DNA from: an uncultured Acidimicrobiia bacterium
GTDB lineage: Bacteria; Actinomycetota; Acidimicrobiia; UBA5794
Direction of reading: 5' to 3'
Length of the DNA: 6,250 bases
Assembly (NCBI GenBank): GCA_905480055.1
Contig: CAJQOW010000250.1
Coordinates: 1 to 6,250, forward strand
The position numbers and the translations under genes were made by a program. Under the pieces are notes generated by a model. That model had not been told where the DNA came from and ran no database searches. It worked only from the letters and a program-made list of their open reading frames with translations. Positions 3,080 to 6,250 of the stretch are shown in pieces. The stretch's first letter is position 1. Each line of letters begins with the position of its first letter.

Positions 3080-3679
3080 ATGGCGACCTCAGTCCACAGC
3101 CAACCGCGCTACTCGCGCAGGCTCATGATCCGACCCTTCCGCCGGAGGGACGTCGGTCCGCTTCACGATGCCATTTCCGTATCCCTGGCAGACCTGCAAC
3201 CGTGGCTGCCATGGGTCGAGGGCTACGACCGCGGCGTTGCGCAGCGGTTTGTGCGTGAGTCGGTGTCGGCGTGGGCAGAGCGCAGGGCGTACGACTTCAC
3301 GGTGAGGACCATCGACGACCCCAACCGCCACATCGGCAACGTGTCCATTTGGCACACGTCGACGGCGAACGACATCGGTGAGGTTGGCTACTGGATCAGA
3401 TCGGACGAAACGGGCAACGGCTACGGGGCCGAAGCCACGACGCGTGCGACCCAGGTTGGATTCGAGGAAATGCGCCTCCACAAGGTGCAATTGCGCATCG
3501 CTGTTGGGAACGTGCGATCAGAGCAGATTGCCCGACGTATCGGATTCGTGCACGAGGGCACGCTGCGCGACGAAGTGAAGGTCGGCGATCGTTGGCTCGA
3601 TCACACGGTCTGGTCGTTGCTGGAGTCCGAATGGTGGACTCAACGTGACCGCCTCCGCTCCGAGGGCACCATCGCATAG
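3080..3679 (+). CDS. GNAT family N-acetyltransferase, RimJ/RimL type
   Basis: The predicted 199-residue enzyme transfers acetyl from acetyl-CoA to an amino group, in the cytoplasm. In the RimJ/RimL sub-family the target is the N-terminus of a ribosomal protein, but many members act on other proteins or small molecules. The fold markers are the opening RRLMIRPFRRRDV (13-25), LQPWLPW (39-45), the strand EVGYWI (101-106), the acetyl-CoA pyrophosphate loop ETGNGYGAEA (110-119, the Q/R-x-x-G-x-G/A motif), and NVRSEQIARRIGF (144-156) followed by HEGTLRDEV, the usual C-terminal helix and strand. The ATG at 3080 has a GGGG stretch just upstream and gives normal family length. The frame stays open further upstream, but that sequence is the reverse of the Nudix gene. 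ATG 3125 would remove the first strand. The gene ends 3 nt before an inverted repeat and is probably monocistronic. Confidence 0.9.
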   Translation: MATSVHSQPRYSRRLMIRPFRRRDVGPLHDAISVSLADLQPWLPWVEGYDRGVAQRFVRESVSAWAERRAYDFTVRTIDDPNRHIGNVSIWHTSTANDIGEVGYWIRSDETGNGYGAEATTRATQVGFEEMRLHKVQLRIAVGNVRSEQIARRIGFVHEGTLRDEVKVGDRWLDHTVWSLLESEWWTQRDRLRSEGTIA

Positions 3680-3682
3680 CTT

Positions 3683-3718
3683 GGGCATCGGACAACAGAT
3701 ATCCGTTGCCCGATGCCC
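3683..3718. terminator. Long inverted repeat between convergent genes, probable bidirectional terminator
   Basis: The arms GGGCATCGGACAAC (3683-3696) and GTTGCCCGATGCCC (3705-3718) pair over 14 positions with a single A-C mismatch and an 8-nt loop. The repeat starts 3 nt after the acetyltransferase stop codon and ends 9 nt before the stop of the SHOCT gene, so it fills the convergent gap. That position fits a terminator serving both strands. Neither side has a T-run, so it is not a classic intrinsic terminator. U-tract-less hairpins are often proposed in actinobacteria. It could also be one copy of a dispersed intergenic palindrome. Confidence 0.6.
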
Positions 3719-3724
3719 GATGCC
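3709..3724. repeat. Two tandem copies of a CCCGATG heptamer
   Basis: CCCGATG occurs at 3709-3715 and again at 3716-3722, followed by CC. Both copies can pair with the single ATCGG-containing left arm at 3683, so the hairpin can form in two registers. The arrangement resembles slippage in an intergenic palindrome, or the edge of a larger repeat element. Confidence 0.6.
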
Positions 3725-3727
3725 TGA

Positions 3728-4114
3728 CTACATCCCGAGGATTTGTGCCTTCTTGGCCGCAAACTCCTCATCGGTGAGGATCCCCGCGGCATGCAGTTCT
3801 CCGAGCTTCTGGAGCTGGTCCAGGTCGGTGCCGCCACCTGATGCGGGAGCCGCCTCGGCTTGTGGAGCAGCAGCCGACTGCTGGTCCTCGGCCGTGACGG
3901 CCTGCTTCTCGATCCCGAGCTGATCCATCGCCTGGGCGAGTTCCTCGTCGGTCATCTCTTCGGGGTCAACTCCTGTTGATTGCTGGATGCGATCAGCATC
4001 CTTCTGGGACATCTTGTAGGCGCCATACCCGATCATGCCGCCGACCAGTATCACGCGGCGTCGACGTCTGCGACGTCGCCGCCTTCGAGGTGCTCCTCGT
4101 CTCATTGGGGGCAT
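3728..4114 (-). CDS. SHOCT-domain protein with poly-arginine N-terminus and short hydrophobic segment
   Basis: This 128-residue protein has four visible parts. Residues 1-20 carry 13 arginines, with eleven in a row at 10-20. Residues 21-34 (VILVGGMIGYGAYK) are hydrophobic and glycine-rich, somewhat short for a full membrane helix. Residues ~37-70 form an acidic, probably helical region with DPEEMTDEELAQAMDQLG. An Ala/Gln/Pro-rich linker follows (~76-95). The end (DLDQLQKLGELHAAGILTDEEFAAKKAQIL) is a clear SHOCT domain, a short C-terminal module of poorly known role, perhaps in oligomerization. The architecture recalls uncharacterized actinobacterial proteins. If membrane-bound, the arginines should keep the N-terminus cytoplasmic. 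Alternatively the basic tract binds nucleic acid or anionic lipid. The start is firm: AAGGAG lies 8 nt before the ATG. ATG 4105 is a weaker alternative. The gene follows the PRMT-like gene by 25 bp and is probably co-transcribed. Biological function is unknown. Confidence 0.85.
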   Translation of the reverse strand: MPPMRRGAPRRRRRRRRRRRVILVGGMIGYGAYKMSQKDADRIQQSTGVDPEEMTDEELAQAMDQLGIEKQAVTAEDQQSAAAPQAEAAPASGGGTDLDQLQKLGELHAAGILTDEEFAAKKAQILGM

Positions 4115-4122
4115 GTCTGGAT

Positions 4123-4128
4123 CTCCTT
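4123..4128 (-). promoter_or_regulatory. Strong ribosome-binding site of the SHOCT gene
   Basis: On the minus strand AAGGAG stands 8 nt before the ATG at 4114 and 11 nt after the stop codon of the upstream methyltransferase gene. It is the best Shine-Dalgarno sequence in the window, fixes the start, and suggests high translation of the downstream gene from the shared message. Confidence 0.8.
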
Positions 4129-4139
4129 GCTCGCTTCGG

Positions 4140-5066
4140 TCATGTGGGCCCTGGCCGCGTCAACGCACCATCGCTGGTGGACAGGCGTTGATCGCCAACC
4201 CGCCAATCCCATTGCGAACCATCGTAACTGGCCACGAGCTCGATCGGCACGGTGTCCCCTCGGCTCACGGAGAATGGTTCATCAACGGCCAGGAGGCCTT
4301 GGTCCCAGCTCGGCACGCCATTCGGAGGTGCGTTGGAAATCGTGATGCCTGGCGCAAGATCGGCGGTGAACCACACGCCGATGCCATGCACGACGCCGTC
4401 CTTCCGAACGAACGCCTCCGCCGACTCGGTTTCCAAGGAGTAACTCCCCACGGCGCCTCGAATCATCGTGGAAGCCTCCGACATGACAGCCGCAGGGCTG
4501 ATCTCGGCCCACATGACGCTGTTGACGACGATGCGCCGGAGGGCACTGAAGTCAAGGGTCAACAACCGGTTGGACCAACGGTTTATCGGCTCGAAGTCTC
4601 TCGGAACGTCTACGAGGGCTGCTCGGACATCGACTTGGCTGGGGATGAAGGCAGCGTCTGGCTTGGCGAGCCGCCTCCGGGCGTCGGCGGCCCACACCAT
4701 GATGCCCTCGTCGAGCCCAATGCTGCCGACCGTCTCGGAGACGACCACATCAGCGAGTTCCGGTAGTTCCACATCCTGGGACGAGCCTTCGATGAACGTG
4801 ATCTTGTCGGCAAGACCATTGGTCGCTGCGATCTCCCTCGCAACATGGATGATGGGTTCGCGCTCGATGGCGTAGACCATGCGTGCTCCTGCCATTGCGG
4901 CGAACATCGACAGCACACCTGTGCCAGAGCCGATGTCGACGACAACGTCGCCGGCCTTGACGGTCGCCATGATGGCCTTGAGGAACGACTCGGTCCTCTG
5001 AACATCCGCGAGCATCGAATCGTGGAAGTCGAAGCTCCCAATTGCACTGTCGTCGTAGCCGCTCAC
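4140..5066 (-). CDS. Protein arginine methyltransferase (PRMT1)-like SAM-dependent methyltransferase
   Basis: The 308-residue protein resembles eukaryotic type I PRMTs from end to end, not only in the SAM fold. An N-terminal part [20 protein letters not shown] (4-23) followed by RT aligns with the PRMT1 region around YFDSYAHF and the DEVRT helix. Motif I is [21 protein letters not shown] (41-61) and Glu68 ends strand 2 as the ribose-binding acid. The double-E loop is [14 protein letters not shown] (110-123) with Glu111 and Glu120, the pair that holds the substrate guanidinium. A C-terminal beta-barrel-like region follows, with PSWDQ (252-256) in the place of the THW loop; the loop His is replaced by Ser and the second Tyr of the N-terminal motif by Ala. 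The expected reaction is methylation of arginine side chains from S-adenosylmethionine; catalysis or product type may differ because of those changes. The GTG start at 5066 is supported by AAGGGGAG 3 nt upstream. It heads a unit with the arginine-rich SHOCT gene. A ribosomal or small-molecule methyltransferase remains possible. Confidence 0.85.
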
Positions 5067-5188
5067 GGTCTCCCCTTGGTGTCGGTCGCCACCCTACCCC
5101 TGCATCGTGGACGTCTCCGAAGGCCCTTCTGGTGCGTTTCGGTTGGGGCTACCGTAGGACCCGGCCATATCAGCAAACTGGAGTCACC
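5067..5188. promoter_or_regulatory. Divergent intergenic region between the PRMT-like and phosphofructokinase genes
   Basis: The 122 bp must hold the start signals of both genes. On the minus strand AAGGGGAG (5070-5077) is the ribosome-binding site of the methyltransferase. On the plus strand GGAG (5180-5183) lies 5 nt before the phosphofructokinase ATG. A weak plus-strand promoter candidate is TTCTGG (5127-5132), a 17-nt spacer and TACCGT (5150-5155). A small palindrome GAAGG-C-CCTTC (5119-5129) overlaps that -35 position and could be an operator. The ribosome-binding sites are well supported; the promoter and operator are guesses. Confidence 0.45.
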
Positions 5189-6250
5189 ATGAAGATCGGC
5201 ATCCTGACAGGCGGCGGCGACGTCCCAGGCCTCAACCCATGCATCAAGGCGGTCGTGAACCGTGTGGCCCATGAAGGTCACGAGGTTGTCGGCTTCCGAC
5301 GGGGCTGGGGCGGACTCTTATACACGAATCCGGACGACCCGGCTTCCATTGCGGAGAACACGATTGACCTGACCCCGTCCAATGTTCGTACTGTCGACCG
5401 GACGGGTGGAACGTTTCTCCATACGAGTCGCACGAACCCCGGCCGCGTTCGCACCGCAGAGATCCCCGACTTTCTCGGTGAACCGCCTGCCGATCAGGAG
5501 AGCCCGTACGACTACACCCCCCACGCCCTCAGGGTCCTCGACGCACTTGACGTCGATGTCCTCATCCCCATCGGCGGCGACGACACGCTGTCATACGGCC
5601 TTCGCATGCACGAGGAGGGCGTTCCCGTCATCGCCGTGCCAAAGACGATGGACAACGACGTCAACGGCACCGACTACTGCATTGGGTTCTCCACGGCAGT
5701 AACCCGCGGTGTCGAGTTCATTCACAACCTGCGCACGAGCACCGGTAGCCACGAGCGCATCGCCGTGGTTGAGCTCTTCGGACGGTATTCGGGTGAGACC
5801 AGCCTCATCACCGCATATCTGGCTGGCGTCGACAGGGCGATCATCTCTGAGGTCCCGTTCAGCGTTGAGCGTCTGGCAGCAATGCTGGTGGAGGACAAGA
5901 AGAAGAACTCCTCGCACTACGCCATGATGACCATTTCCGAGGGTGCCCAGTTCGAGGAGGGCGAAATGGTGCTGTCTGGCGAGGAGGACGCCTACGGCCA
6001 TCGCAAACTCGGAGGGATTGGTTCCCAGACAGGGGCAATGCTCACCGAACTCACCGGTCAGAACATCATCTATCAGCAGGTCGCCTACCTGATGCGGTCA
6101 GGTAACCCTGACTCGCTCGACCTCATGGTTGCCACCAACTACGCAAACATGGAAGCAGATCTGGCTCTGGAGGGCATGTCCGGCCGCATGGTTGCCCTTC
6201 GTGGCGGGACGTACACGAACGTCCCGATCACCGAGACCAGCGAAGGCGTC
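5189..6250 (+). CDS. 6-phosphofructokinase, probably pyrophosphate-dependent, N-terminal 354 residues
   Basis: The frame runs off the right edge, so the C-terminus is missing; related enzymes are about 350-420 residues, so little may be absent. It phosphorylates fructose 6-phosphate to fructose 1,6-bisphosphate in glycolysis, in the cytoplasm. Motifs in order are [13 protein letters not shown] (5-17), [12 protein letters not shown] (73-84), GGDDT (129-133), PKTMDND (151-157) with the catalytic base Asp155, [10 protein letters not shown] (195-204, equivalent to MGRYCGD of E. coli PfkA), SEGA (250-253), and [12 protein letters not shown] (300-311). Asp132 replaces the Gly104 of ATP enzymes and Lys152 replaces Gly124. 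In this family that pair indicates PPi rather than ATP as phosphoryl donor, and the reaction is then readily reversible. Residues ~86-110 form an insertion relative to E. coli PfkA. The ATG at 5189 has GGAG 5 nt upstream and starts with the expected [11 protein letters not shown]. Donor specificity is a prediction. Confidence 0.92.

Follow-up and report, generated by a model that had tools for sequence, protein, structure and literature searches.

Arginine methylation by protein arginine methyltransferases (PRMTs) has been studied mostly in eukaryotes, and proteins carrying RGG/GAR boxes are substrates of PRMT1. We report here on two adjoining genes in a 6,250-nucleotide stretch of DNA from an uncultured Acidimicrobiia bacterium (contig CAJQOW010000250.1; the window), one encoding a PRMT-family protein and the other a small protein with an arginine-rich N-terminal tail and a SHOCT domain. 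PRMT and SHOCT are known families; their pairing is well supported as a conserved two-gene unit, and because the genes adjoin in several bacterial lineages the two proteins probably work together. Where the enzyme retains both glutamates of the PRMT double-E motif, the simplest reading is that the PRMT methylates the arginine tail, to which we assign a probability of about 0.5.

The window enzyme resembles the eukaryotic PRMTs (PRMT1, PRMT3, PRMT6, PRMT8 and CARM1) in its whole predicted fold, its double-E motif and the residues of its S-adenosylmethionine (SAM) site. It differs in being bacterial, in sharing only 22–26% identity with them, in having PSW in place of THW and in having one small gene beside it; it is known here from sequence and predicted fold. 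The SHOCT protein's tail is, like the RGG/GAR-box substrates of PRMT1, rich in arginine with some RG, and RGG boxes occur in a few relatives (e.g. P0196, P0228, L034 and L012); unlike those substrates, the window tail is mainly an unbroken arginine run with a single RRG. The protein has the C-terminal SHOCT domain, above the Pfam cut-off, in common with described SHOCT domain proteins (PMC3581485), whereas the main text of that paper contains neither 'arginine' nor 'methyltransferase'. Increasing evidence for prokaryotic arginine methylation is noted in another paper (PMC8466066). In the portion of the open-access literature covered by our search, with subscription papers and preprints outside it, we found no description of a PRMT–SHOCT pair and no paper on bacterial PRMT substrates.

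The gene pair and its proteins

A first-pass annotation of the window had placed a PRMT homologue and a small SHOCT gene on one strand, 25 bp apart, which is confirmed. The PRMT-like gene lies upstream and the SHOCT gene downstream on the minus strand, with the following features.

4140–5066, minus strand: PRMT-family methyltransferase gene, 308 amino acids, GTG start, isoelectric point 4.45
4707–4736, minus strand: double-E loop, residues 111–120; E111 and E120 both retained, nine residues apart
4305–4313, minus strand: PSW, residues 252–254, at the position of the THW loop; Trp alone retained, His replaced
4115–4139, minus strand: spacer of 25 nucleotides, with a Shine-Dalgarno-like AAGGAG at 4123–4128, 8 nucleotides ahead of the SHOCT ATG
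3728–4114, minus strand: gene for the poly-arginine SHOCT protein, 128 amino acids, ATG start
4055–4114, minus strand: arginine tail, residues 1–20, 13 arginines; run of 11 at residues 10–20 (4055–4087)
4016–4054, minus strand: short glycine-rich hydrophobic segment of 13 residues (21–33), VILVGGMIGYGAY
3737–3820, minus strand: C-terminal SHOCT domain, residues 99–126; Pfam 44.2 bits (cut-off 27), E 1.4e-11

It is plausible that the two genes share one message. A search of 3500–5300 gave neither a terminator-like nor a sigma-70-like site, an absence that says little since shuffled sequences average just 0.8 and 0.4 such sites respectively.

That the larger protein is a bacterial PRMT homologue is borne out by a Pfam match to PRMT_C (31.2 bits, cut-off 27, E 2.6e-7), by a PDB sequence search headed by PRMT6 (E 1.7e-27) and by a predicted structure holding both the SAM domain and the beta-barrel of the PRMT fold. 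Predicted helices at 155–163 and 174–181, both in lower-confidence blocks of the model, may correspond to the dimerisation arm. The double-E motif is retained in all of the best 120 of 248 homologues. The THW loop is typical of type I PRMTs and variable in other PRMTs; with PSW at this position, the window protein falls outside the type I subgroup of PRMT1 and PRMT6 as judged by this loop. Sequence and predicted fold place the window enzyme in the PRMT family, with the double-E motif intact and catalysis putative.

The tail likewise agrees with the first-pass annotation: arginine fills 13 of the first 20 positions (residues 5, 6 and 10–20), 11 of them in an uninterrupted run, and RRG occurs once. 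All six arginine codons are used in the run, which therefore did not arise as a slipped simple repeat. Beyond the hydrophobic segment follow an acidic conserved core and the SHOCT domain. The structure model of this protein (predicted local distance difference test 74.5, predicted template-modelling score 0.39) is too weak for reading. A search for SHOCT relatives gave 1062 matches, and 72 of the best 120 have a tail that a script could read. These 72 tails contain 986 arginines versus 9 lysines, and the remainder of the same proteins 143 versus 492. Since lysine is nearly absent from the tails yet abundant elsewhere in the same proteins, it is arginine itself that is conserved. The ratio disfavours plain positive charge as the point of the tail; arginine-specific binding of phosphate would yield an equal ratio. 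Glycine is the second commonest tail residue, and RG or GR occurs in 57 of the 72.

We note that many SHOCT relatives among the matches listed (P0124, P0127, P0130 and others) begin within or past the arginine tract, thus their predicted starts probably conceal a tail. Two paralogues (L015:1474-1740 and L037:1459-1728) have the poly-arginine tail and the same core without a SHOCT domain; tail and core may therefore be a unit of their own.

Recurrence of the pair

Scanning genome contigs with a PRMT alignment gave seven loci, in four of which a SHOCT gene adjoins the PRMT gene; six of the seven genomes hold a near full-length SHOCT match somewhere, and that of G003 is interrupted by stops. Within the order of G001 (138 genomes) the SHOCT gene is found in 11 genomes and a close PRMT in six, all among the 11; a distant PRMT-fold gene is present in G304 and G305, neither of which has a SHOCT match. 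Of the 56 genomes in the order of the Chloroflexota genome G005, 18 have SHOCT, 10 have a PRMT-fold gene and seven have both (Fisher p 0.008, uncorrected, as are all our Fisher values, for kinship between genomes). Draws from the two classes gave a PRMT-fold gene in 11, a near full-length SHOCT in nine and both in four of 296 genomes (class of G001), and eight, 15 and four respectively of 298 (class of G005; p 2.6e-4). A phylum-wide Chloroflexota draw found the SHOCT protein in 2 of 231 genomes, both already in the survey. Candidates scored per genome were the best seven for PRMT and the best 14 for SHOCT in the class draws, the best 16 in one search of the order of G001, and all in the order of G005. 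Because genome completeness and contamination are not given, assembly gaps may account for some of the absences.

When both genes are present they are usually neighbours. In the order of G001 adjacency holds for five of six genomes, the exception being G003, whose SHOCT gene lies on a different contig as a relic carrying two in-frame stops, and in the order of G005 for seven of seven, G005 itself having two pairs. Counting only genomes of these two complete orders with both genes intact, 12 of 12 have them adjacent on the same strand. Beyond the two orders, the class draw of 298 genomes adds G636, with the genes adjacent, and G425, with the genes apart. The pair thus spans Chloroflexota and an order of Acidimicrobiia type. 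Comparison of 0.4 to 5.5 kb of flank per side sorts the 15 pairs, window included, into 10 groups with no flanking homologue common between groups. A survey of related genomes for co-occurrence and adjacency had been proposed as a check of the first-pass annotation, and the adjacency is not limited to one genome. The dedicated arginine-methylation module that it suggested gains in its functional link from the recurrent adjacency; methylation of the tail is still an inference.

Matching contigs by size between the PRMT and SHOCT protein lists gave seven matches against about 2.2 by jitter, three of them longer than 7 kb; at least five arose in 122 of 2000 jitters, so these matches are weak support. 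Five size-matched proteins are marked as adjacent in the enzyme tree on that ground alone.

Two arrangements and two kinds of enzyme

Seven pairs (window, G001, G002, G004, G006, G269 and G005a) have the PRMT gene before the SHOCT gene and an intact double-E motif. In the other eight (G005b, G435, G636, G848, G849, G857, G871 and G872) the SHOCT gene precedes a gene for a PRMT-fold protein. These eight Chloroflexota partners have Asp in the first Glu position and no Glu at the second, and thus lack the canonical double-E. The Glu of the SAM site is retained in all 15 partners. Three of the eight reversed-order enzymes were included in the enzyme tree, where they form their own supported clade (100/96) apart from that of the window; the other five were assigned by motif. 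Of the nine Chloroflexota SHOCT proteins, which come from both arrangements, eight share one weakly supported group of the SHOCT tree (88/75), and G857 lies beside it. This shared group suggests one SHOCT lineage with two kinds of enzyme partner.

Some PRMT-fold proteins (L005:6004-7191, L043:2087-3250, L071:1219-2373 and L014:266-1432) have a C-terminal extension that looks PqqD-like by eye; a Pfam match to PqqD was seen in L005 only, below threshold.

Proposed tail methylation and its alternatives

For the double-E pairs we envisage that the acidic PRMT would bind the basic tail and move methyl groups from SAM onto some of its arginines. Methylation would keep the charge of the tail and weaken its hydrogen bonding, which may tune its grip on nucleic acid, the ribosome or an anionic membrane. 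Because many relatives' genomes show no PRMT, the tail would have a basic function without methylation, and the PRMT may be an optional control layered on it. More tentatively, the pairs may represent a bacterial cassette, recurring in unrelated neighbourhoods, in which a stand-alone PRMT has the neighbouring poly-arginine tail as dedicated substrate, and in which the PRMT of Chloroflexota has given way to an enzyme of PRMT fold whose active site is rebuilt and whose partner is unchanged.

Several observations weigh against tail methylation. In 8 of the 15 pairs the PRMT-fold partner lacks the double-E, and the THW His is missing from all 20 aligned homologues. Among the SHOCT genomes of the two orders, 16 of 29 have no PRMT match, 8 of the 11 in the order of G005 resting on a single search, and a profile search for PRMT_C (PF22528) found none in 16 SHOCT-only genomes (five from the order of G001, 11 from the class of G005). 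Across the 24 chosen genomes that search found the domain in eight, those with a known PRMT-fold gene, and in none of 14 controls. The tails of SHOCT-only genomes are still arginine-rich; in the order of G001 their runs equal in length those with a neighbouring PRMT, and the tail richest in RGG within that order belongs to G202, a genome without a PRMT. The caution in the first-pass annotation that arginine-rich SHOCT proteins may lack a PRMT neighbour was well founded. Conversely, PRMT-fold genes often occur without SHOCT, as in 7 of the 11 genomes with such a gene in the G001 class draw, and in 4 of 8 and 3 of 10 for the class draw and the order of G005 respectively; double-E enzymes of the window's clade in G003, G005c, G425 and G090 have no intact SHOCT gene adjacent, and G425 holds the two genes apart. 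Moreover, the tie between long arginine runs and PRMT in Chloroflexota comes down to two independent pairs. The runs there measure 5, 8, 8, 10, 10, 10, 10, 11 and 11 in the nine adjacent cases, and 3–4 in 18 of the 20 non-adjacent ones, the others being 8 and 9. In the order of G001 run length and PRMT show no association (p 1.0). For these two reasons, run length as a PRMT marker is not counted as evidence. The count took in 29 of 33 Chloroflexota SHOCT loci, omitting L054, L055, L056 and L059 (cut-off or partial matches, with runs of 3–4), as well as the relic L013 and the paralogues or fragments L015, L037 and L038; an earlier count on fewer loci gave weaker numbers.

The main rival is a binding or anchoring role, in which the PRMT-fold protein would attach to the tail, or methylate some other site, with the SHOCT protein serving to anchor or position the enzyme. 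The pairing persists in the eight pairs lacking the double-E, for which the usual arginine chemistry is therefore unlikely; such a partner may still be an enzyme, since the SAM-site Glu is always kept. A mere binder needs neither Glu of the double-E, yet both are present throughout the window enzyme's best 120 relatives, and we consider this role less likely than tail methylation. Still less probable is that the PRMT targets other proteins of the cell while the unmodified tail binds nucleic acid, ribosome or membrane, the genes being together through one pathway. Arginine tails do persist in genomes without a PRMT match, as do PRMT-fold genes without a SHOCT protein (e.g. G846, G622 and G874), but repeated adjacency with no third gene common between neighbourhood groups favours a direct relation. 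Accidental adjacency inherited by descent would account for the flanks that are shared: the window has its wider neighbourhood in common with G001 (L001, whose record bears the title Acidimicrobiia, is the sole fetched locus to have it), G004 is nearly identical to G006, and some flanking genes recur among G005a, G636, G849 and G857. The 10 neighbourhood groups, two gene orders and two enzyme clades speak against it and make it very improbable.

If tail methylation is correct, the two-gene system would offer a minimal enzyme–tail set in which to study the effects of arginine methylation, and might also show how the PRMT family was used earlier. Whether the PRMT fold has a role beyond arginine chemistry could be asked of the reversed pairs, which lack the double-E.

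Two minor observations concern the fetched loci. L004 and L006, titled Acidobacteria, were placed by genome search in the order of the Acidimicrobiia-titled record, and their titles are probably wrong. Five loci with SHOCT-domain genes (L034:1929-2657, L047:1905-2567, L001:9925-10461, and also L035 and L036) have one further family in common, presumably DUF6325.
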